Virus record (IMG/VR): IMGVR_UViG_3300021197_001324
Location: 1-26,987 of that record
Reading direction: 5' to 3' (one strand)
From: a virus
Length of the DNA stretch: 26,987 nucleotides
Shown here piece after piece: positions 6,495 to 20,022 of the stretch. The notes beneath the pieces are model-generated. The model was given only the letters and a program-made list of their open reading frames with translations. It made no database searches and had not been told where the DNA came from. Position numbers and translations under genes: made by a program. Each line of letters opens with the position of its first letter. Position 1 is the stretch's first letter.

Positions 6495-8354
6495 ATGTCA
6501 GTTTTAGATAAATTAACAGAAGGTATTGTTAATCGTAACCTCCAGAAAGAAGGTGCAGCCCTACTTACCAAGTGGGAGAACACCGGACTTCTTGAGGGAC
6601 TTAGCAATGACCAAACAAAGGACGCCATGGCTCGTTTGCTTGAAAACCAAGCTAGAGAGTTGTTGCGTGAGGCATCCAGCATGGCCGCTGGTCAGGATGT
6701 CGAAGGTTTTGCATCCGTTGCATTTCCAATCGTTCGCCGTGTATTCGGAAACTTGATCGCCAACGACCTCGTAAGCGTTCAGCCAATGAGCCTCCCATCG
6801 GGACTCATCTTCTTCCTTGACTTCACAACTTCTACAGATGGTCCGGGTCTTCCGCACCTCGGCTATGGAGCCACAGAAGAATCACTTTACGGTGGTGGTG
6901 TTGTTGCTCAACAGTTGACAGGAGGTATTAACCTTACTCAAGACGGAGCCCCTGAACAAGGTGCTTATGCTTTGAACAATGGTTATGCTAGCCCAACTGG
7001 ATCTTATCTACTTGCCCCACCTAATGGCACAAGTAACGTTCAATTGGTTCTTGTTGCTTCTGGTACTGTTGGTGTTGCAGGTGGAGAAGGTACTCATCCT
7101 CTCAGTGATGCTGCTCAAGAAACATTGGATAAGCTTTGCAACTATGACCCAGATCTTAAAGATAGAGTTGTTGTTGTTATTGAAGCAACTGGTTCTGCCG
7201 GTGCTGCTCTTGCCAACAATGACTTCCAGCAGTTCGATGTAAGAAACTTCGTTGCTCTTGAGGGTTCTAGTAACAAGGGTCTTGGTGAACTGGTTAGACG
7301 TTGCACAAAGATCTCCTCTGGTAGTTATGCTGGAAATGATCCGGGCAATACTGCATTTAAGTATACCATGGTATTCGCATCTACTGCATCTGCCGGTGCT
7401 GCTGTGACTCTTGGTAGAGTTGCTTCTGGTGTTGACACGTCGGGTAATACAGCAAACCTTGTTAACATCACTGGTTCGACCTTGACCTTGAACTTCCCAC
7501 TCATTGACAACTTTACTGCTGGAGACTCAATTGGGTCTGTTCTTGGAGCAAATTTGTGGAACTTCGAAAATGAGCAAAACATCCCAGAAATCGACATCAA
7601 AGTTGATTCCATCGCTGTTACTGCTCAGACAAAGAAGCTCAAAGCTAAGTGGACTCCAGAATTGGGTCAAGACCTTAGTGCTTATCACAACCTTGACGCA
7701 GAGGTTGAGCTTACAAGCATTCTCTCTGAGCAAATTGCTCTTGAGATTGACCGTGAGATCCTTGAGGACCTTATCAAAGGTGCTACTGCTGGAACTCAAT
7801 ACTGGTCTCGCCGTGTAGGTAGATTCCTTGATAGACAAACTGGAACCCAAATTGGTACCGCTACAAACAACGAGTCCTTGTTTGGCGCTGACTTCACTGG
7901 TAATGTTTCTGAGTGGTATGAAACCCTCGCAGAAACTATCAATGATGTTTCGGCTCAAATCCACAGAAAGACACTCCGTGGTGGCGCAAACTACATTGTT
8001 TGTTCACCAGAGGTTGCTAACATTCTTGAATTCACTGCTGGCTTCCGCGCAAGCATTGGAAACGATTATGGTAACGGTTCTATTGGAGCAGTTAATGTTG
8101 GATCTTTGAGTAAGAAGTTTGACGTATATGTGGATCCTTACTTCCCACGTAATGTTGTACTTGTTGGACGTAAAGGTGGATCATTCCTCGAAAGTGGATA
8201 TGTATATGCACCATATGTCCCACTCCAAGTAACTCCAACCATCTTTGGTGTAGAGGACTTCGTACCTCGTAAGGGTGTCATGACCCGTTATGCCAAGCAG
8301 ATGGTTAGACCAGATATGTATGGTCTTGTTATCTGTCGCGACCTTCTTGGGTAA
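6495..8354 (+). CDS. gp23: Major capsid protein (gp23-like)
   Basis: This 619-aa protein forms the hexamers of the head. Alignment with T4 gp23 is clear in four places. LLTKWENTGLLEG and ARLLENQARELL lie near the N-terminus. VRRVFGNLIANDLVSVQPM is followed by PSGLIFFL. KLKAKWTPELGQDL then LDAEVELTSIL lies near residue 380. The C-terminal part has FDVYVDPYFP, VGRKGG and YVYAPYVPLQ. An L-x-E site, LLRE(59)/ASSM, sits where T4 gp23 is cut by the prohead protease (LTE65/A), so residues 1-59 may be removed on maturation. It is about 100 aa longer than T4 gp23, mainly in an insertion around 150-350. AGGAG precedes the ATG. It shares a transcript with the scaffold gene and ends at a strong terminator. 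Confidence 0.97.
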   Translation: MSVLDKLTEGIVNRNLQKEGAALLTKWENTGLLEGLSNDQTKDAMARLLENQARELLREASSMAAGQDVEGFASVAFPIVRRVFGNLIANDLVSVQPMSLPSGLIFFLDFTTSTDGPGLPHLGYGATEESLYGGGVVAQQLTGGINLTQDGAPEQGAYALNNGYASPTGSYLLAPPNGTSNVQLVLVASGTVGVAGGEGTHPLSDAAQETLDKLCNYDPDLKDRVVVVIEATGSAGAALANNDFQQFDVRNFVALEGSSNKGLGELVRRCTKISSGSYAGNDPGNTAFKYTMVFASTASAGAAVTLGRVASGVDTSGNTANLVNITGSTLTLNFPLIDNFTAGDSIGSVLGANLWNFENEQNIPEIDIKVDSIAVTAQTKKLKAKWTPELGQDLSAYHNLDAEVELTSILSEQIALEIDREILEDLIKGATAGTQYWSRRVGRFLDRQTGTQIGTATNNESLFGADFTGNVSEWYETLAETINDVSAQIHRKTLRGGANYIVCSPEVANILEFTAGFRASIGNDYGNGSIGAVNVGSLSKKFDVYVDPYFPRNVVLVGRKGGSFLESGYVYAPYVPLQVTPTIFGVEDFVPRKGVMTRYAKQMVRPDMYGLVICRDLLG

Positions 8355-11302: not shown

Positions 11303-14300
11303 ATGTCGGCAAAAGATTTCAAATTTGTTTCCCCCGGAGTGTTCATTGAAGAGATTGACAACTCCCAAATACCAAAATCCCCAGTAGCGATTGGACCATT
11401 GGTAATCGGTCGTTCAAGAAAAGGTCCAGCATATCAGCCAGTCAGAGTTGATTCTTTTTCGGAATTTGTCAGCATCTTCGGCTCCCCAGTTGGAGGCGAA
11501 GAATCAAGCGATGTCTGGAGAGGCGGAATCCCCACTGCTCCCACTTTTGCTGCATATGCCGCCCAAGCATGGCTAAGAAACTCATCTCCAATCACCTTTA
11601 TTAGACTTCTTGGTAGCCAATCCCCAGACGCAGACACTTCCTCAGATACTGCTCTTGCAGGCTGGGCAACAAAAAGAGCCACCCAAAGTGGTCAGGCAGA
11701 CAGAGCCGGTGCTTACGGGCTATTCCTTTTTAACTCTTCGTCATCATCTCCAGAGGCTGTCGATGGAACTTTGGCGGCAATCATTTACAATACAACAGGC
11801 GCTGTAACACTCAGCGGTAGTTTGAGAGGTGTTGAGTCTGGAACCACGGCTCATCCAAACCTTACATCAACAACTGGTAGTTGTGCGATGGTACTCTCTA
11901 CAGATAAGAGTTTTACTCTCCAAGTTTACAATTCAAGCGAGGCATTGCAAGAGGAAACACTTATTAGCCTTGACAGAAATAATGCTAACTACATTAGAAA
12001 AGTATTAAACACAAATCCAACTTTAACAAATAGTAATTTGGTAGACTCTTCAGCGGATACCGCTAGAAATCACTTCCTTGGACAAACTTTTGAAAGAGAA
12101 GTGAAAGATAAAATTACTTCAAGTTCAGCCTATGGAATGATCTTAAGGCTTGGTAGAGACTCTGCCGACGTAACTGATGCAGCGAATTACAAGTTTGCAA
12201 CCCAAGGCGGAAAATCTGGTTGGTTCTTCTCGCAAGACCTTAGAAATACAAGCGCTAACGTAGCAGATCCTTCTGCAAACGTTCCGTTGCCAATGTACGA
12301 TCCTGCATCTTTGAGCGGTATTACTAGACTATTCCGTGTTTGTAGCTTATCTGCTGGAGAGGAGTTGCAAAGAAACTATAAGATTTCTATTGAAGACCTT
12401 CAGTATTCTACAAATGACAACAGCCCATACGGGACATTCACTCTTGCCATAAGAGATATTAGGGATTCTGATAATTCCAGAAAGTACGTCGAAAGATACA
12501 CGGGCTTAAGTTTGGATCCAAATTCACCAAACTACATTGCAAAGCAGATAGGTGATATCTACTATGAGTGGAATGATGACAACAGAAGACTCATCGAGTA
12601 CGGCTCTTATCCCAATGTTTCAAGCATCGTTAGAGTTGAAGTTGCTTCTTCTGTTGACAAAGGTCAAGCAGACCCAGAACTTCTCCCATTCGGTGTTGAA
12701 GGACCAATTAAGTTTGGCGACTTCGTTGTGACCAGTGACGACTCAAGCGGAACACAGGCAGCAACAGCAACTGTTAAACTTGATGACTTTACTAAGATTC
12801 AAACAGGTGTAGGTGCAACTCTCTCAAACGGAGCCGACACTAGTGGAGGCGGTGTTTTCATTCAGGAAACAACTTTGGGAAATCTAGCCGACAACACAAT
12901 AACAATTGAGTTTACAGACGTAGGGCTCGATGACACACAAGGTGTTGCTCTTACGAACAACCACAAAATCATACTTAAGAACACCAATGACGTTACATCG
13001 ATTACAGCCCCAAATGCATATGAATGTTTCGTCAGTATTACAGATGGTGAGGGCAGCACAGTTAGTTCTGCGGCCGTAATCGCTAATCGTATTATTCAGG
13101 CTCTTAAAAGAGACTCTGCCTACGTAGACGGTGACAGAACAGGAAACACCGCTCTGACAACAATGTTTAAATATCATGCCTCCAGATGGAGATTAACTGG
13201 AGTCAGCACAATTGACGCAGGAACAACCGACGCCAGCCCCGCATCTTGGACTTCTGGTGGTGACGCAGACAGTGTTTTAGAGGCATCTATTAATGCCGTA
13301 AATGGTGTAAAAATCCAAGCCAGAGGTTACAATGGCGGAACACACGCATGGGGTAATGATGGACGCTACGGTGGAACTGTAGTGGCCAGCAATACCGATT
13401 GGAAATTAAATGTTAACGCTGCTAGTTCAGCCGGAGGAGCCAGCGCCGCAGACGGAACCGTTACTACTGGTACTGTGGTAGGTGCGACAGAGATCGTAAC
13501 AAACTGTGGTGGAGGCACTCAATCAGTTAAAGCCAACGAGGATGGTGGAACTGCCTTCATCGTAGGACACAACTCAGCCACGACTTTAACTAGTTTAATC
13601 GCAGCACTTAACGCAGAGTCTAATCAATCAGCCGCATCTTCTGTAGCCGATACATTGATTATAACAAACACTGGCGATGCTGGACTGGCTGGTAATGCCA
13701 GAACTGTTGAATTGGATGATTCTACAGCGGGAGCATTTACTGTTCAGGGTGTAGCCAATGACGGAACTCGAAACTTCAATGGCGGTAGTGACGACGGTGA
13801 CTTTAGCAATGGTAAAGTTGTTAAGAGTGCCACAGACTTCGCCGCCCCAGATTCTCCTGTTACAGCAGGTTCTGGTAGTGCTGGTGTCTTCATGGCTGCT
13901 TCTGCATCAACTGCCGACGCGGGAACAGGGCAGGACATCCTGCTCCAGTATTCTGGTAGAGCAGTTAATGTTCCCTTCACAGGGTCTGTCAAGTTCCCAA
14001 GTGTGCCTTTGAGATTGAGCGCATCAGATGGGGACCTTAACGATCCAACCGAAGCATACTTCGGCGCACAATATGCTAGAGATGCTAGTTCGATAGTGTT
14101 TGAAGAGAGCAGCCTTGACTTAGCCTACCCAGTTGCGAAAGCATCAGCTTTTGCCCCTAGCTCAACAACAGCAGGCGGCTTGGTAACCTCTTGGTACTTC
14201 TCCTTGGATGACCTAGTAGCAAAATACAAAACTGCCGCAGGCAATAAAGATATATTGTTCTATCAGTCAGGATCTAGAGCGGATGGATACTCAGTAACGG

Positions 14301-15400
14301 CTATTAGTGGATCTTACAAAAAGATCCTTGATATGGGATATGACAGATTCACAAGTGTCTTCTACGGGGGATTTAATGGATTTGACATTACTGAGCAAGA
14401 ACCATTCAATCAGACAAGGGCGTTTTTGGATGGATCAAACACCAGCGAGATTAACTCCTCCATGTTTTACTCCGCCAAAAAGGCAGTCGATATGTTTGCA
14501 GATCCTGAATTTATAGAAGCAAACATATTGAGCGCTCCGGGGATTAGACATAATGGGCTTACGACGCACATGATTAGTACATGTGAGTCTAGAGGGGATG
14601 CATTAGCATTAATTGATCCGCTCGGAGGATACAAGCCATCATCAGAAAACTCTTTAGTAGAAAAAGACAGAATTACATCTGGTCTTGGGCGAGGTGGAGT
14701 ATCGCAGCACGTTATTGACGTTGGTAACAGCGTTTCAACACGCAACTTAAATTCAAGTTACGGCGCAGTGTATTATCCTTGGGTTAGAATTACAGATACA
14801 ATTAGTGGTAAAAACCTCTGGGCACCACCATCTGTTGCTGCACTTGGGGCGATGTCGTACTCCGAAAATAACTCAGCGCTCTGGTTCGCACCAGCAGGGT
14901 TTAACAGGGGTGGCTTAACCGAGGGTGCAGCAGGCATCCCAGTTACAAACGTCAGAAGCCGTCTAACTTCAGCAGAAAGAGATTTCTTGTATGAGAGAAA
15001 TGTTAACCCAATTGCTTCTTTCCCGAATGAGGGCATCGTGATCTTTGGTCAAAAGACACTTCAAGTAACACCTTCTGCGTTGGACAGAATTAATGTTAGA
15101 AGATTGATGATCTTCGTAAAGAAAGAAATTTCTAGAATCGCTTCTAGATTGCTCTTCGATCAGAATGTTGAGCAAACTTGGTCTAGATTTACAGGTCAGG
15201 TTAATCCATTCTTGACAAATATCAAAAATAACTTCGGTCTAGACTCCTTCAAGGTTATTCTAGATGAATCTACAACTACACCAGACCTCATTGACAGAAA
15301 TACAATCTATGCAAAGATTTTCTTAAAGCCAACCAAGGCTGTAGAGTTCTTCGCAATTGATTTTGTAATTACAAACTCTGGTGCAGGTTTTGAAGATTAA
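11303..15400 (+). CDS. gp18: Tail sheath protein (gp18-like), greatly enlarged
   Basis: The 1365-aa protein is the contractile sheath subunit. Its N-terminus (VSPGVFIEEIDNS, then GPLVIGRSRKGPAY) and C-terminus match gp18. T4 RDRLYQEAINPV, PFDRINVRRLF and PSVIDRNEFVATFYIQPA correspond to RDFLYERNVNPI, ALDRINVRRLM and PDLIDRNTIYAKIFLKPT. WFAPAGFNRGG matches WMSPAGYNRGQ. T4 gp18 has 659 residues, so about 700 are extra. They lie mainly between roughly 130 and 950, are rich in Thr/Ser/Gly/Asp, and hold at least two related beta domains (about 500-600 and 720-830) of the type IT.. ALN.E.. LIITN. Such insertions usually face outward in sheaths. The start has AAGGAG. It is expressed with the tube gene 42 nt downstream. 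Confidence 0.95.
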   Translation: MSAKDFKFVSPGVFIEEIDNSQIPKSPVAIGPLVIGRSRKGPAYQPVRVDSFSEFVSIFGSPVGGEESSDVWRGGIPTAPTFAAYAAQAWLRNSSPITFIRLLGSQSPDADTSSDTALAGWATKRATQSGQADRAGAYGLFLFNSSSSSPEAVDGTLAAIIYNTTGAVTLSGSLRGVESGTTAHPNLTSTTGSCAMVLSTDKSFTLQVYNSSEALQEETLISLDRNNANYIRKVLNTNPTLTNSNLVDSSADTARNHFLGQTFEREVKDKITSSSAYGMILRLGRDSADVTDAANYKFATQGGKSGWFFSQDLRNTSANVADPSANVPLPMYDPASLSGITRLFRVCSLSAGEELQRNYKISIEDLQYSTNDNSPYGTFTLAIRDIRDSDNSRKYVERYTGLSLDPNSPNYIAKQIGDIYYEWNDDNRRLIEYGSYPNVSSIVRVEVASSVDKGQADPELLPFGVEGPIKFGDFVVTSDDSSGTQAATATVKLDDFTKIQTGVGATLSNGADTSGGGVFIQETTLGNLADNTITIEFTDVGLDDTQGVALTNNHKIILKNTNDVTSITAPNAYECFVSITDGEGSTVSSAAVIANRIIQALKRDSAYVDGDRTGNTALTTMFKYHASRWRLTGVSTIDAGTTDASPASWTSGGDADSVLEASINAVNGVKIQARGYNGGTHAWGNDGRYGGTVVASNTDWKLNVNAASSAGGASAADGTVTTGTVVGATEIVTNCGGGTQSVKANEDGGTAFIVGHNSATTLTSLIAALNAESNQSAASSVADTLIITNTGDAGLAGNARTVELDDSTAGAFTVQGVANDGTRNFNGGSDDGDFSNGKVVKSATDFAAPDSPVTAGSGSAGVFMAASASTADAGTGQDILLQYSGRAVNVPFTGSVKFPSVPLRLSASDGDLNDPTEAYFGAQYARDASSIVFEESSLDLAYPVAKASAFAPSSTTAGGLVTSWYFSLDDLVAKYKTAAGNKDILFYQSGSRADGYSVTAISGSYKKILDMGYDRFTSVFYGGFNGFDITEQEPFNQTRAFLDGSNTSEINSSMFYSAKKAVDMFADPEFIEANILSAPGIRHNGLTTHMISTCESRGDALALIDPLGGYKPSSENSLVEKDRITSGLGRGGVSQHVIDVGNSVSTRNLNSSYGAVYYPWVRITDTISGKNLWAPPSVAALGAMSYSENNSALWFAPAGFNRGGLTEGAAGIPVTNVRSRLTSAERDFLYERNVNPIASFPNEGIVIFGQKTLQVTPSALDRINVRRLMIFVKKEISRIASRLLFDQNVEQTWSRFTGQVNPFLTNIKNNFGLDSFKVILDESTTTPDLIDRNTIYAKIFLKPTKAVEFFAIDFVITNSGAGFED

Positions 15401-15442: not shown

Positions 15443-16057
15443 ATGGCAGACAACTTCGGATCTAAATTTTGGGCAAACATCTCCAGCGAACCAAAAAGAA
15501 AATATAGATTTATTCTTGAATTAGCTGGAATCGATTCTTGGGTCATCACTAAAGTTGATAGACCAAGTTTCAATATTTCTGAAACAGAGCATACATTCTA
15601 CAATCACAAGTTTTACTATCCCGGTAAAGTAGAGTGGCAAACAGTTAATTTCTCCTTGGTGGATCCGATCAGCCCAGACGCCACCTCCTATATTATGGGT
15701 ATTTTGGGAGCCTGTGGCTACCAAGTGCCAAGCCCATTCCAGTATTCCTCTATTTCTAAAGAGGCAGCCGTTAATGTTTTGGGAGAAGTGAAAATCAAGG
15801 CGAAAGATGCGGAGGGATCAAATGTTGAAATTTGGACTCTTAAAAATGCATGGGTTAAAAATGTCAATATGGCAGACTTCGACTACACTTCAGACGACAT
15901 GCTCACTATGGATATCGAGCTTCGCTATGATTATGCATTGTTTAATCAAGCAGGAAAAGCTAAATTGCCAATTCAAGCAACCGGCGTTAAATCTAAAGGT
16001 GGTTCTGGTGTCAGTATTGCAGACGGCTATAACTCTCTTAAGAATGATGCGGTATAA
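15443..16057 (+). CDS. gp19: Tail tube protein (gp19-like)
   Basis: This gene encodes 204 aa. The N-terminal part, RKYRFILELAGIDSWVITKV followed by DRPSFNISETEHTFYNHKFY and YPGKVEWQTVNFSLVDPISP, is the classic tube pattern of T4-type and other contractile tails. It continues with a long strand-rich half ending in LTMDIELRYDYALFN. The protein stacks as hexameric rings to form the DNA channel. It is about 40 residues longer than T4 gp19 (163 aa), mostly in a Lys/Gly/Ser-rich C-terminal tail after residue 165. The ATG is preceded by AAAAGGA. It directly follows the sheath gene, as 18-19 in T4. Confidence 0.93.
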   Translation: MADNFGSKFWANISSEPKRKYRFILELAGIDSWVITKVDRPSFNISETEHTFYNHKFYYPGKVEWQTVNFSLVDPISPDATSYIMGILGACGYQVPSPFQYSSISKEAAVNVLGEVKIKAKDAEGSNVEIWTLKNAWVKNVNMADFDYTSDDMLTMDIELRYDYALFNQAGKAKLPIQATGVKSKGGSGVSIADGYNSLKNDAV

Positions 16058-16118: not shown

Positions 16119-16976
16119 ATGTCTATTAGAAACAATGAGAGCCGCACAACCGCTGCTCAAGAAGATGCTCCCGCCCCTCAAATGGCAGCATCCCATCCCC
16201 AGCCCACTCATATGGGATTTACCGTTCCAACTCAAATTGTGCAATTGCCCTCTGGCGGCAAATATTATGAAGAGGGACATCCGCTTCATGGAAAAGACAC
16301 AGTTGAAATAAGATACATGACTGCAAGGGACGAGGATGTATTAACAAACAAATCTTTCCTTAAAAACGGAGTTGTGATTGATAAGTTGATAGAGAATATC
16401 TTGGTCGACCAGTCAATCCCAGTATCGAGTTTGCTGGTGGGAGACAAGTCCGCCTTGATTGTGGCTGCTAGAATAACTGGCTATGGATCAGAATATTCCA
16501 CAAAAGTTGTGTGCCCTTCGTGCTCGAATGTATCAAGCTTCTCCTTTGACTTGGAATCCGCCGTTAGTAATACTGACGCCAGCCAGTCAGGAGTAGAATA
16601 TGAAGAGACAAATTCTGGAACATTTGTTATTACTGTTCCCAAGTCTCAGGCAACTATAGAAATGAGACTCTTGACCGGAGAGGATGAGAGGCACATTACC
16701 AGCACAAACAAGATGAGGCAGAAAAATGGTCTGGGAGAATTAACCTTGACCGACCAAATGAAGCAATATATTGTCTCAATAAATGGAAATTCTGATCGCT
16801 CTTTTGTTAATTCGACTGTTGAGTTGTTGCCTGCTTTAGATGCGCGTTTTATTAGATTAAACTATGCAAAACTTATCCCAAATGTTGATTTGACACAGCA
16901 CTATGAATGCCAATCTTGCGGCTTTGAGCAAGATATGGAGGTACCGTTTACCTCTGACTTTTTTTGGCCTGAGTGA
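16119..16976 (+). CDS. gp26: Baseplate hub assembly protein (gp26-like, T4_baseplate family) with zinc-ribbon cysteines
   Basis: The 285-aa protein begins with a disordered Ala/Pro/Gln-rich stretch (1-32). The family core follows: IVQLPSGGKYYEEGHPL, VEIRYMTARDEDVLT, LLVGDKSALIVAARITGYG and, later, ELLPALDARFIRLNYAKLIP. This is the pattern of the gp26-type family (Pfam T4_baseplate). Two pairs of cysteines, C132-x2-C135 and C264-x2-C267, look like a metal-binding ribbon. T4 gp26 (208 aa) helps assemble the hub. It ends in FFWPE over a T7 run, where the next reading frame begins to look conserved (see the frameshift feature). The SD GAGG is at 16110-16113. As in T4, it is followed by gp51. Confidence 0.8.
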   Translation: MSIRNNESRTTAAQEDAPAPQMAASHPQPTHMGFTVPTQIVQLPSGGKYYEEGHPLHGKDTVEIRYMTARDEDVLTNKSFLKNGVVIDKLIENILVDQSIPVSSLLVGDKSALIVAARITGYGSEYSTKVVCPSCSNVSSFSFDLESAVSNTDASQSGVEYEETNSGTFVITVPKSQATIEMRLLTGEDERHITSTNKMRQKNGLGELTLTDQMKQYIVSINGNSDRSFVNSTVELLPALDARFIRLNYAKLIPNVDLTQHYECQSCGFEQDMEVPFTSDFFWPE

Positions 16977-17133
16977 TGAATATATTGAGTCGGTATATGA
17001 GGAAATGTTTAATCTAAAATATCATCTTGGAATAAGCATATTTGAATCATATAATCTACCTATACAAATTAGAAGATGGTTTTTAAGACGAATTCAAAAG
17101 CAATATGATGATGAAGGCAAGAATAAAAACTAA
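16903..17133 (+). CDS. gp51-like hub assembly / tail chaperone-like frame, overlaps the gp26-like gene
   Basis: A 76-codon frame overlaps the gp26-like gene by 74 nt. Residues from FGLSDEYIESVYEEMFNLKY to LPIQIRRWFLRRIQKQYD look like real protein, namely two helices with the P-x3-R-x-W pattern common in small proteins placed before the tape measure. The first 19 residues are probably only a shadow of gp26. The ATG at 16903 has no SD. An internal ATG at 17005 has GAGGAA directly against it, too close to use well. The conserved part begins exactly at the T7 run in the +1 frame of gp26, so it may be made as a gp26 extension. T4 gp51 is much longer (249 aa), so the name rests on position. A terminator follows. 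Confidence 0.6.
   Translation: MNANLAALSKIWRYRLPLTFFGLSDEYIESVYEEMFNLKYHLGISIFESYNLPIQIRRWFLRRIQKQYDDEGKNKN
16959..16965 (+). other. Candidate programmed frameshift site (T7) joining the gp26 and gp51 frames
   Basis: Seven T's are read GAC-TTT-TTT-TGG in the gp26 frame, whose TGA is at 16974-16976. A +1 or -2 slip of tRNA-Phe on TTT leads into GGC-CTG-AGT-GAT, the conserved part of the downstream frame. The result is a fusion of about 337-338 aa. Tail-assembly chaperones of many phages are made by frameshifting, with -2 known in Mu. I see no obvious pseudoknot but cannot fold the RNA. Confidence 0.4.
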
Positions 17134-17145
17134 CTTTATTTACTT

Positions 17146-17183
17146 AAGGGCTAATGGCTTGAGCTATTAGCCCTTATTTTTTT
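17146..17183 (+). terminator. Strong terminator after the gp51-like gene
   Basis: A 13-bp stem (one G-U) joins 17146-17158 (AAGGGCTAATGGC) to 17163-17175, closed by a TTGA tetraloop. Seven T's follow at 17177-17183. It separates gp26/gp51 from the tape-measure group. Confidence 0.93.
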
Positions 17184-17193
17184 ATTAAATAAT

Positions 17194-17218: not shown

Positions 17219-17548
17219 ATGTCCGTTTTAAAAGAGGAAAAATTAGCCCCAATAGAGATATGCCTGAACCCTGACTCAATTGATGAGGCATACTTAAGGC
17301 AACTCGGGGCACAGATAGAGTTTCTTGTTAAAGGTTTGTTTGGAGGGACTTTTGTCCCTGCAAGACTCAGAGGCACACAGACTCAGTTGAAATCTTTTGC
17401 TCGCGCTCTTGGTAACGAAACAAGATACCTAAGAAGCTTTGAAAGGCATGGATTATCAGACCCTAGAACTCTAAACAGCAGACATAGGCTTGAGGGCGCT
17501 ATAGCTGGCTTTGAAAAAGAAACTGGCATTAAGTGGCCTTTTAAATAA
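17219..17548 (+). CDS. Conserved small phage protein of unknown function
   Basis: This gene encodes 109 aa. The second half is basic and helical and ends in a distinctive block: LRGTQTQLKSFARALGNETR, YLRSFERHGLSDPRTLNSR and a final GIKWPFK. I have seen this C-terminal style in marine phage proteins of unknown role, but I cannot name a family with certainty. There is no signal peptide or membrane segment. The start is supported by GGAGG eight bases before the ATG. The gene stands alone after a terminator and box and ends 8 nt before the tape-measure ATG, which suggests a role in tail assembly, perhaps as a tape-measure partner (inference). Confidence 0.7.
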   Translation: MSVLKEEKLAPIEICLNPDSIDEAYLRQLGAQIEFLVKGLFGGTFVPARLRGTQTQLKSFARALGNETRYLRSFERHGLSDPRTLNSRHRLEGAIAGFEKETGIKWPFK

Positions 17549-17556
17549 TATAAATT

Positions 17557-20022
17557 ATGGCAGACCAAAAAGACATAGGCATTCTGGAAAGAATCAATAC
17601 TGAGTTATCAAAGCAGGTTGAGTTTGAAGCCAAGATCGCACGAATACGCGGCGAAGAGGTAACAAATCTTGATAAGCAACTTGATAGGCTTGTGAAACAA
17701 AAAGAAGTTCAAGCTAATATTGAGGAAATATTAACAGAAACGAATAGAGATGTTCGAATGGCTGCTATTGATTTAATGGAACAAGAGGCAAAACTCCTCA
17801 ACCAAAAGAATAAAATAACATCCACTGCTTATAAAAACCAACTGGATCTCGCCAAGGAACTCAGAAAGGTCACTAATGACTCATCCGATGAAGCCTTTAA
17901 AGCGCTACAAAAGAGACTGAAAGAACAAGAGAAGCTTACCAAGGTTACTGAAAAGCACACCAAAGCTATGATCGCCGGAACAAAGGCTGGCGCAGGAATG
18001 GCTTCCGGGATGGCAAAGTTTATCGGAATTGCTGGCGAGGCTGATACAGTCGTAGGTCAGCTTGTTGGATCAATAAATGTTTTTGACAAGGGAATGCGAG
18101 GTGCTTTCAAGGGCTTGGGAGGCGTAGCCTCTGGGTTTGCAAAGGATTTTAAAAAGAACTTTAATTTCACGAATACATTTGCATTTTTGATAAACAATCA
18201 GATAGAGGTAGGTCTTGCATTTCACCAGATGAGAACCGAATTGTCAAAGGCAACTGGTGCAGGATTTGAATACTCGCATTCCATCGAGGATGCTCAAAAA
18301 AGATCTGCCAAATTAGGCATTACCTTGGCCACCGCAACGCAAAGCACAGCGGCACTATATGACGAATTTGAAAGGTTCACAACTTATTCTAGAGACACGA
18401 GAACAGATGTAGTTGATCTTACCAGTAAATTGCAAGAAGTTGGCATTTCTGCATCCACTTCAGCCAGAGCGCTAAATTTCATGGTTACAGAATTAAATCA
18501 ATCTTTACCAGAAGCTATGGATCAAATGAGAGAGTTTGCGGAGGTCGGACAGCAAATGGGCATTCCCCCCCGAGAATTGGCTGATACATATGTTCAATTA
18601 ATGCCGCAACTTTCTATCTTTGGTCAGAGATCAAAACAAGTTTTTAATGACGCCGCGATATTTTCAAAGAAGTTGGGACTGAGCGTCGGAGAGACCGCAG
18701 GTGACATCATTGGACTATCAGATCGTCTAGGTACTTTTGAAGGTGCTGCCAAGGGCGTTGCAGCAATTAATATTGCCATGGGCGGTTCGTTCATTAACGC
18801 CTTTGATTTAGCAATGAAAAAATCCGAAGGACCAGTTCAGCAGCTTTATTATCTCAGAGATGCTATTCAAGCCTCTGGAAAATCTTTAGATGACTTAGGA
18901 GTCTTTGCAAAAGAATACCTAGAAGATGAATTGGGCACTCGTTTTGGTAAGTTACAGGCACTTCTTCAAGGAGAAGAGATAGATGAAGCAACAATTAAAA
19001 CAGAGGCTCTTACATTAGAAGAGCAAGTTGCAATCAACACCACTGCAATGCAAAAACTGCAATCAGCAACAGAGGCAGATACCACAGCCCTCGCTGCGAC
19101 GGAAAAAGCATTCTCGGAGGGCACCACAAAAATGTCGGGTCTCATCGATGCAATCGGGGGATTAAAAACAGTGTTGATTGCTTCCTCTGTTATTTCAGGG
19201 TTGGGCAGTGCGATTAGTGGGCTCAGGGCTTTGCAGTCCGGGGGTGGACTTAGGGGCTTCTTGGACGGCGCGATACAGAGACAAAGCGCCACAGGCAGAG
19301 ATGCATTAGCCAGAGTTAACTTATTTCCCGCCAACAAGGGGGTTGTTCCGGGCAAAGGACCCATACCCGGAGGCGGCTCAGGCATGGGCGCACCAGCAGC
19401 AAAGGCAACAGTTGCAGCCCTTGGAGCAGGAGCATCAAAAGAGGTTATAGAAGCAGCAGCAGAAGAGGTAGTAGAAGAGACGTTAGAGAAGGCAGGACAA
19501 AATGTTGCAAAGAAGGCAGCACAGGAAGGTGCCGAGATGGCTGGAAAATCATTGCTTAAAAAAATACCACTTATCGGCGCAGGAATGGGGCTGTTTTTCG
19601 GAGCCCAAAGAGCACTAATGGGAGACTACGTAGGCGCAGCAATGGAGGTTGCTTCTGGCGCAGCATCAACTATTCCGGGTATTGGGACTGCTGCGTCTCT
19701 CGGTATAGACTCAGCGCTGATAGCAAAAGATCTGGGTGTATTTGGCAGCGCCACACCAGTAAAGTCAAAATCTCCAAAGGCAGCACCGAGAATAAGCACC
19801 GCTCAAATTAGCACTAAGTCTGCAACGGAAAACGCAATGCTTAGGCAAGAATTATCTATGCTAAGAAGATCTTTGGACAACAACGTGCAAGCATCCAGCA
19901 AGCAGCCGCTAAAAGTGGAATTACATTTGGACAGGAGCGGAACCAAAAAGATCGCAGAGGCTTCTCTAAATGTGTTGGACGGCAAGTATCTTTCAAGGGG
20001 GAAAGTCTCTAATAATGGATAA
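17557..20022 (+). CDS. Tape measure protein
   Basis: The 821-aa protein has the layout of a tail tape measure. A charged coiled coil (about 1-135) comes first, then a Gly-rich stretch (about 140-200). A long helical middle contains TELNQSLPEAMDQMREFAEV and a DIIGLSDRLGTFEGAAKGVA segment. Hydrophobic glycine-rich segments lie near 535-560 (LKTVLIASSVISGLGSAISG) and 665-725 (IPLIGAGMGLFFGA and following). A final coiled coil and strand complete it. Such proteins fill the tube, fix its length and may enter the host membrane. At about 1.5 angstrom per residue it would suit a tail near 120 nm (inference). The ATG is 8 nt after the previous stop and no SD is visible, so coupled translation is likely. 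It takes the position of T4 gp29. Confidence 0.85.
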   Translation: MADQKDIGILERINTELSKQVEFEAKIARIRGEEVTNLDKQLDRLVKQKEVQANIEEILTETNRDVRMAAIDLMEQEAKLLNQKNKITSTAYKNQLDLAKELRKVTNDSSDEAFKALQKRLKEQEKLTKVTEKHTKAMIAGTKAGAGMASGMAKFIGIAGEADTVVGQLVGSINVFDKGMRGAFKGLGGVASGFAKDFKKNFNFTNTFAFLINNQIEVGLAFHQMRTELSKATGAGFEYSHSIEDAQKRSAKLGITLATATQSTAALYDEFERFTTYSRDTRTDVVDLTSKLQEVGISASTSARALNFMVTELNQSLPEAMDQMREFAEVGQQMGIPPRELADTYVQLMPQLSIFGQRSKQVFNDAAIFSKKLGLSVGETAGDIIGLSDRLGTFEGAAKGVAAINIAMGGSFINAFDLAMKKSEGPVQQLYYLRDAIQASGKSLDDLGVFAKEYLEDELGTRFGKLQALLQGEEIDEATIKTEALTLEEQVAINTTAMQKLQSATEADTTALAATEKAFSEGTTKMSGLIDAIGGLKTVLIASSVISGLGSAISGLRALQSGGGLRGFLDGAIQRQSATGRDALARVNLFPANKGVVPGKGPIPGGGSGMGAPAAKATVAALGAGASKEVIEAAAEEVVEETLEKAGQNVAKKAAQEGAEMAGKSLLKKIPLIGAGMGLFFGAQRALMGDYVGAAMEVASGAASTIPGIGTAASLGIDSALIAKDLGVFGSATPVKSKSPKAAPRISTAQISTKSATENAMLRQELSMLRRSLDNNVQASSKQPLKVELHLDRSGTKKIAEASLNVLDGKYLSRGKVSNNG

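Follow-up and report, generated by a model that had tools for sequence, protein, structure and literature searches.

Reading frames at the locus

The window analysed here, a stretch of 26,987 nucleotides of viral DNA from an IMG/VR record, contains a gp26-like reading frame whose 3' end reads GAC TTT TTT TGG CCT GAG TGA and includes a run of seven T at 16959-16965. A second frame, in the +1 phase relative to the first, is open at 16894-17130 and is then closed by TAA at 17131-17133. This arrangement raises the question of whether the downstream frame encodes a protein of its own or the end of a longer protein, reached by ribosomes that change frame at the T run. A preliminary description of this DNA had suggested the latter, with a gp26-like and a gp51-like part fused by frameshifting; the codons, coordinates and T run given there were confirmed on the sequence.

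The gp26-like product matches the Pfam family T4_baseplate (PF12322, 2.3e-13) and PHROG 150, 'baseplate hub' (1.1e-14). The locus lies between the tail tube gene and the probable tape measure gene, with one small ORF before the latter, and relatives are arranged alike. We consider it very likely that this is a tail assembly chaperone gene producing two forms via programmed +1 ribosomal frameshifting on YUU_U. Most ribosomes would read 16119-16976 to the TGA and release the short form. In a fraction of them, tRNA-Phe would sit on UUU (16962-16964) in the P site as UGG enters the A site and would slip one base forward onto UUU (16963-16965), so that reading goes on at GGC (16966). The slipped ribosomes would append a conserved C-terminal domain of three helices, and the resulting long form of 337 aa would be the equivalent of T4 gp51. 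If lambda G/GT is taken as a guide, the short form may coat the tape measure protein, while the long form may also recruit the tail tube subunit. That the shift takes place in cells, and its rate, are inferences; the chaperone role is deduced from homology and position. The features are collected in Table 1.

Table 1. Features of the predicted chaperone locus, its neighbours and the homologous site in jumbo-phage relatives
Feature	Position	Strand	Basis or remark
gp19-like tail tube	15443..16057	+	PF06841 2.2e-7, PHROG 4542 6e-22
Short form (TAC-N, gp26-like), 285 aa, two CxxC pairs	16119..16976	+	stop TGA 16974-16976
Long form (TAC-NC), 337 aa, via predicted +1 frameshift	16119..17133	+	translation, AF2 model, gp51 profile match
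ATG heading the downstream ORF, probably no start	16903..16905	+	without SD, not conserved
Possible hairpin TGGAGGTACCGTTTACCTCTG, candidate stimulator	16936..16956	+	just 5' of T run; suggestive
GGAGGT, SD-like, upstream of slip codon	16937..16942	+	enriched in relatives
Predicted slip site TTT TTT TGG	16959..16967	+	slip codon TTT 16962-16964, then T 16965
C-terminal three-helix domain in +1, 55 aa and TAA	16966..17133	+	frame kept in relatives; model
Probable tape measure protein, 821 aa	17557..20022	+	place, composition, synteny
-1 heptamer T TTT TTC at homologous Phe-Phe, downstream domain in -1 frame	L021-L023, L124-L133		jumbo-phage relatives

Conservation of the frame relation

The preliminary description had proposed comparing the junction among relatives, and such a comparison reveals a conserved frame relation. 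The same junction is present in 12 of 12 IMG/VR relatives at 41-50% identity. A profile search yielded at least 592 relatives, of which the best 80 were scored; this first survey also took in 11 loci from prokaryote assemblies, plus phage records. With the N and C parts scored by separate profiles, the C part lies in the +1 frame in 107 of the 109 loci that have both parts, the two exceptions being weak-scoring jumbo-phage relatives, where it is at -1. A second survey, covering another subgroup and seeded with a Flavobacterium-phage branch, played no part in forming the slip rule described below, and here all 79 of 79 loci display the +1 relation. The consistency of both surveys indicates that the downstream frame is not there by chance. 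Isolates Mel-JY01, immuto, SP-15 and LIS04 have the +1 relation as well.

Column entropy offers a finer view of the junction. Upstream, variation is freest at third positions of 0-frame codons (1.54 bits), and downstream at third positions of +1-frame codons (1.53 bits), with a nearly invariant block, TTT YTT TGG N CT, sitting between the two regimes. After the slip, C, T or A can open the next 0-frame codon, while the Gly-Leu of the +1 frame is fixed. Together, the entropy switch and the variable 0-frame base beside the fixed Gly-Leu localise the join to the slip codon. As judged from these alignments, both halves are constrained at the protein level, each in its own frame.

The predicted slip site

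In the first set, with its 98 distinct loci, TTT serves as slip codon in 91, CTT in seven and TTC in none, against a TTC share of Phe codons elsewhere in these genes of 24% (N part) and 36% (C part). All 98 continue with TGG in the 0 frame. In the second set, where the site was located as an NTT codon that follows a Phe codon and was present in every locus, the next codon can also be TAC or TTC, with YTT followed by T retained. Tabulated jointly, YTT then T is found in 178 of 178 loci, which represent 160 clusters at 90% identity and 56 at 60%. Two remote loci fall outside the first count: L112 has TTT TTT TTC and obeys the same rule, and L014 has TTT CTA, which would be a UUU_C site.

The variants TTT CTT TGG, TTC TTT TGG and TTT CTT TAC all fit a +1 slip on YUU_U, and the operation common to them is most likely re-pairing of the P-site tRNA from YUU one base forward. 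The direction of the shift can also be assigned. The preliminary description had left the phase as +1 or -2; the frame itself was right, and the direction is narrowed to +1 at YUU_U, since relatives with TTC TTT TGG or TTT CTT TGG are devoid of the T run needed for -2. For work on +1 slippage, the clade offers a sizeable natural collection of simple sites in which YUU_U precedes a sense codon.

Alternative explanations

The two frames could instead encode independent proteins, with the downstream ORF translated from its own start at ATG 16903 or by reinitiation after the gp26 stop. The window does offer this in-frame ATG, some relatives have an upstream start codon in the +1 frame that is preceded by an SD in a few of them, and jumbo relatives such as Kaldavass have TAATG. 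However, no SD-like sequence precedes ATG 16903, as had already been remarked in the preliminary description, and in 71 of the 98 distinct relatives the +1 frame lacks any ATG ahead of the slip. ATG, GTG and TTG alike are absent from the +1 frame before the domain in 30 of the 98 first-set loci and in 18 second-set loci (48 in total), and in L003, L005 and L012 the frame opens only a few codons 5' of the run; independent initiation therefore cannot be general. The ATG that overlaps the gp26-like stop of the window (16976-16978) belongs to the third frame, which speaks against reinitiation. Moreover, separate genes need not hold one frame relation across nearly 190 loci, and T4 gp51 carries both parts in one chain. 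We regard independent translation as very unlikely. Less likely again is transcriptional slippage at the T run, in which an mRNA one U shorter would yield the fusion by normal translation. Seven T make a plausible site in AT-rich contexts and the loss of one U leads to the same frame, but about 25 loci (TTT CTT TGG, TTT CTT TAC, TTC TTT TGG) keep the +1 relation with a longest run of three or four T, and these short runs render slippage by the polymerase implausible.

A -2 ribosomal shift, as in the chaperone of phage Mu, ends in the identical frame and could operate on the seven T of the window, giving DFFFGL in place of DFFGL. The slip sequences of the relatives do not allow it: TTC TTT TGG, TTT CTT TGG and TTT CTA lack a clean two-base backward re-pairing, while every variant fits +1, and we rate this option lower still. 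Least probable of all, and scarcely credible, is a fault of sequencing or assembly, or a gene in decay. The metagenomic origin of the window, itself a fragment, and the homopolymer at the site would suit such an artefact, yet the same arrangement occurs in cultured isolates and in loci free of a homopolymer, and the constraint on each half in its own frame argues against decay. The comparative data thus support the frameshift and the 337-aa fusion of gp26-like and gp51-like parts that the preliminary description had put forward.

The predicted fusion product

Structure prediction allows for a closer look at the product of the putative +1 shift. The AF2 model of the 337-aa fusion reaches a pLDDT of 86.8 from residue 33 on and a pTM of 0.84, and places the helices of the C domain at model residues 254-271, 275-279 and 283-304. 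Its input combined the fusion of the window with unfused pieces of relatives (38 rows of relatives), and the window row was repeated to hold the rows together. As modelled, the fusion adopts one confident fold; folding from the single sequence was uninformative. A Foldseek search of predicted viral structures returned a 'baseplate hub subunit' of SP-15 (TM 0.84, normalised by target length) as well as several entries called 'baseplate hub assembly protein, bacteriophage T4-like', and a fold search of the PDB gave nothing convincing. In a PHROG scan of the window fusion, the match ends just past the join. The predicted fusion would also correct the annotation of isolates Mel-JY01, immuto and SP-15, in which the second half is labelled as a separate or truncated 'hypothetical protein'.

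Relation to T4 gp26 and gp51

PF12322 matches T4 gp26 at 8.8e-64 and T4 gp51 at 3.9e-52, and on this sequence evidence the two T4 genes are paralogues of the window gene. T4 gp51 consists of a gp26-like part and a C-terminal extension in one chain, resembling the frameshift product predicted here. In a one-pair comparison, the alignment of the fusion profile with the gp51 profile runs across the junction and on to the end (E=2.8e-4); for the C domain by itself, the match to the gp51 C-terminus is weak (E=0.03) and is equalled by 1 of 60 shuffles. The downstream piece, initially described as gp51-like, would correspond to the C-terminal domain of T4 gp51 and not to the whole protein, which includes a gp26-like part.

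With a high degree of confidence, we propose that the +1 shift generates the equivalent of T4 gp51. The N parts belong to one family and both phages have a T4-type virion module, whereas the genetic solutions differ: T4 employs two paralogous genes on opposite strands, and here there is one gene with a predicted +1 frameshift. A single PF12322-like gene is found within the window, itself a fragment of 27 kb; the stretches of P-SSM2 examined contain no annotated gp26 or gp51. Vladimirov, Gautam and Davidson reportedly identified the T4-like tail assembly chaperone genes in 2022, under a title that argues against frameshifting. According to PMC10885494 and PMC12846349, the separate-gene arrangement of T4 is already published (Vladimirov et al. 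2022); PMC10885494 sums up the T4-like chaperone pair as a short gene plus a longer, fused one. The earlier suggestion that gp26 and gp51 form a frameshifted chaperone pair in this phage is supported, whereas T4 itself has separate paralogous short and long genes. In this large clade of mostly uncultured T4-type phages, one gene thus appears to do the job of two T4 genes, as a frameshift version of a pair for which the literature proposes a non-frameshift mechanism. This arrangement points to a possible route from one frameshift gene to two separate genes.

SP-15-like and jumbo phages

More distant members of the family display the same domain behind differing junctions. In SP-15, LIS04 and Streptococcus phage GXN1, the C domain follows TTT in the +1 frame, and the SP-15-like C domain profile matches that of the window clade at E=8e-7 (equalled by none of 60 shuffles). 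At the same Phe-Phe, an in-frame T TTT TTC is carried by jumbo relatives (Kaldavass, CBB, Atu_ph07, a Vibrio phage and others). Their -1 frame conserves FFR-x-[RK]-L-[LF] and, in nearly all of them, opens merely 1-3 codons 5' of the heptamer. Their domain matches that of the window clade at E=2e-5, again with none of 60 shuffles as good. Several jumbo relatives have a start codon soon after the heptamer (e.g. TAATG), so that a -1 shift there is likely but less firm. Taken together, these matches make it probable that a homologous domain is entered at the same Phe-Phe by +1 in the window clade and SP-15-like phages, by -1 in jumbo phages, and in T4 through gene duplication and an in-frame fusion. 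In that case, a single gene family would have exchanged the direction of its frameshift and even the use of frameshifting.

Comparison with other frameshift systems

Xu et al. reportedly described, in 2004, a general frameshift in tail chaperones, with lambda G/GT as the example. The present locus shares with lambda G/GT a short ORF, a slip near its 3' end, a longer fusion and a place just upstream of the tape measure gene. The lambda site slips by -1 and the window clade by a predicted +1 on YUU_U, and no sequence similarity between the two has been shown.

A closer mechanistic parallel is offered by prfB (RF2), where a +1 frameshift occurs at CUU_UGA with a stop codon in the A site and an SD 3 nt upstream. 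Both sites have a P-site YUU followed by U with one-base forward re-pairing, and CUU_U itself occurs in relatives of the window. In contrast to prfB, the A-site codon here is a sense codon (UGG, UAC or UUC), an SD 3 nt upstream is absent, and the site is not an autoregulatory switch.

The chaperones of Pakpunavirus and Vandenendeviridae frameshift by -1 at GTTTTT (PMC12846349), and that of the haloarchaeal myovirus HSTV-2 very likely by +1 (PMC5009743). The former resemble the present case in a T-rich slip at the end of a short chaperone gene, conserved over the family, and differ in direction and in belonging to other phage families; the latter shares the +1 shift in the tail chaperone of a contractile-tail virus and differs in its archaeal host. 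The open-access literature searched holds no report of the present +1 site. Frameshifted tail chaperones are already known, and the +1 version in the T4 gp26/gp51 family would be new.

Possible stimulators

GGAGG occurs about 21-25 nt 5' of the slip codon in 58 of the 98 first-set loci, versus 0.4% per sequence window elsewhere. At its position Glu is encoded by GAG 66 times and by GAA twice, compared with 724 GAG and 1169 GAA elsewhere. Despite this enrichment, we did not adopt GGAGG as an internal SD driving the shift, since its last G lies 21 nt before the slip codon and the motif is neither invariant nor general in the second-set junctions seen. In the window, GAGGTA and TACCTC could pair as a hairpin 5' of the T run. 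The segment from -24 to -3 is more stable than codon-shuffled controls (z -3.8 in each subgroup; the controls average -0.9 and -1.2), but individual control windows went as low as -5.1 and -3.2, which leaves the upstream hairpin as a lead only. Both elements are suggestive as leads, not conclusions. Downstream, no consensus pairs for a pseudoknot or stem-loop emerged among the relatives, and the window itself has a z of 0.26.

Neighbouring genes

The surroundings form a T4-type virion module, in which a gp23-like capsid protein (PF07068, 1.1e-73), a tail sheath and the gp19-like tube precede the chaperone locus. A nucleotide search of phage records with the window gave no matches. Directly past the C domain, at 17145-17184, lies a strong intrinsic-terminator-like hairpin of 14 pairs followed by seven T, which separates the locus from a 109-aa ORF (17219-17548) that precedes the probable tape measure gene. 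In many relatives this place is likewise taken by an ORF of about 110 aa; that of the window has no family match in Pfam or PHROG.

The product of ORF 17557-20022 does not match named tape measure families. It is probably the tape measure protein, given its place, its composition and the tape measure annotation of syntenic genes in relatives. Its residues ~593-731 match PHROGs named endolysin or peptidase at about 1e-20; by eye, this stretch seems hydrophobic and not enzyme-like. The tail sheath ORF (11303-15400) is unusually long at 1365 aa, with sheath family matches covering only the last ~380 residues and none assigned to the remainder. Similarly, the first 330 residues of the 619-aa gp23-like capsid protein (6495-8354) lie mostly beyond the Pfam Gp23 match.
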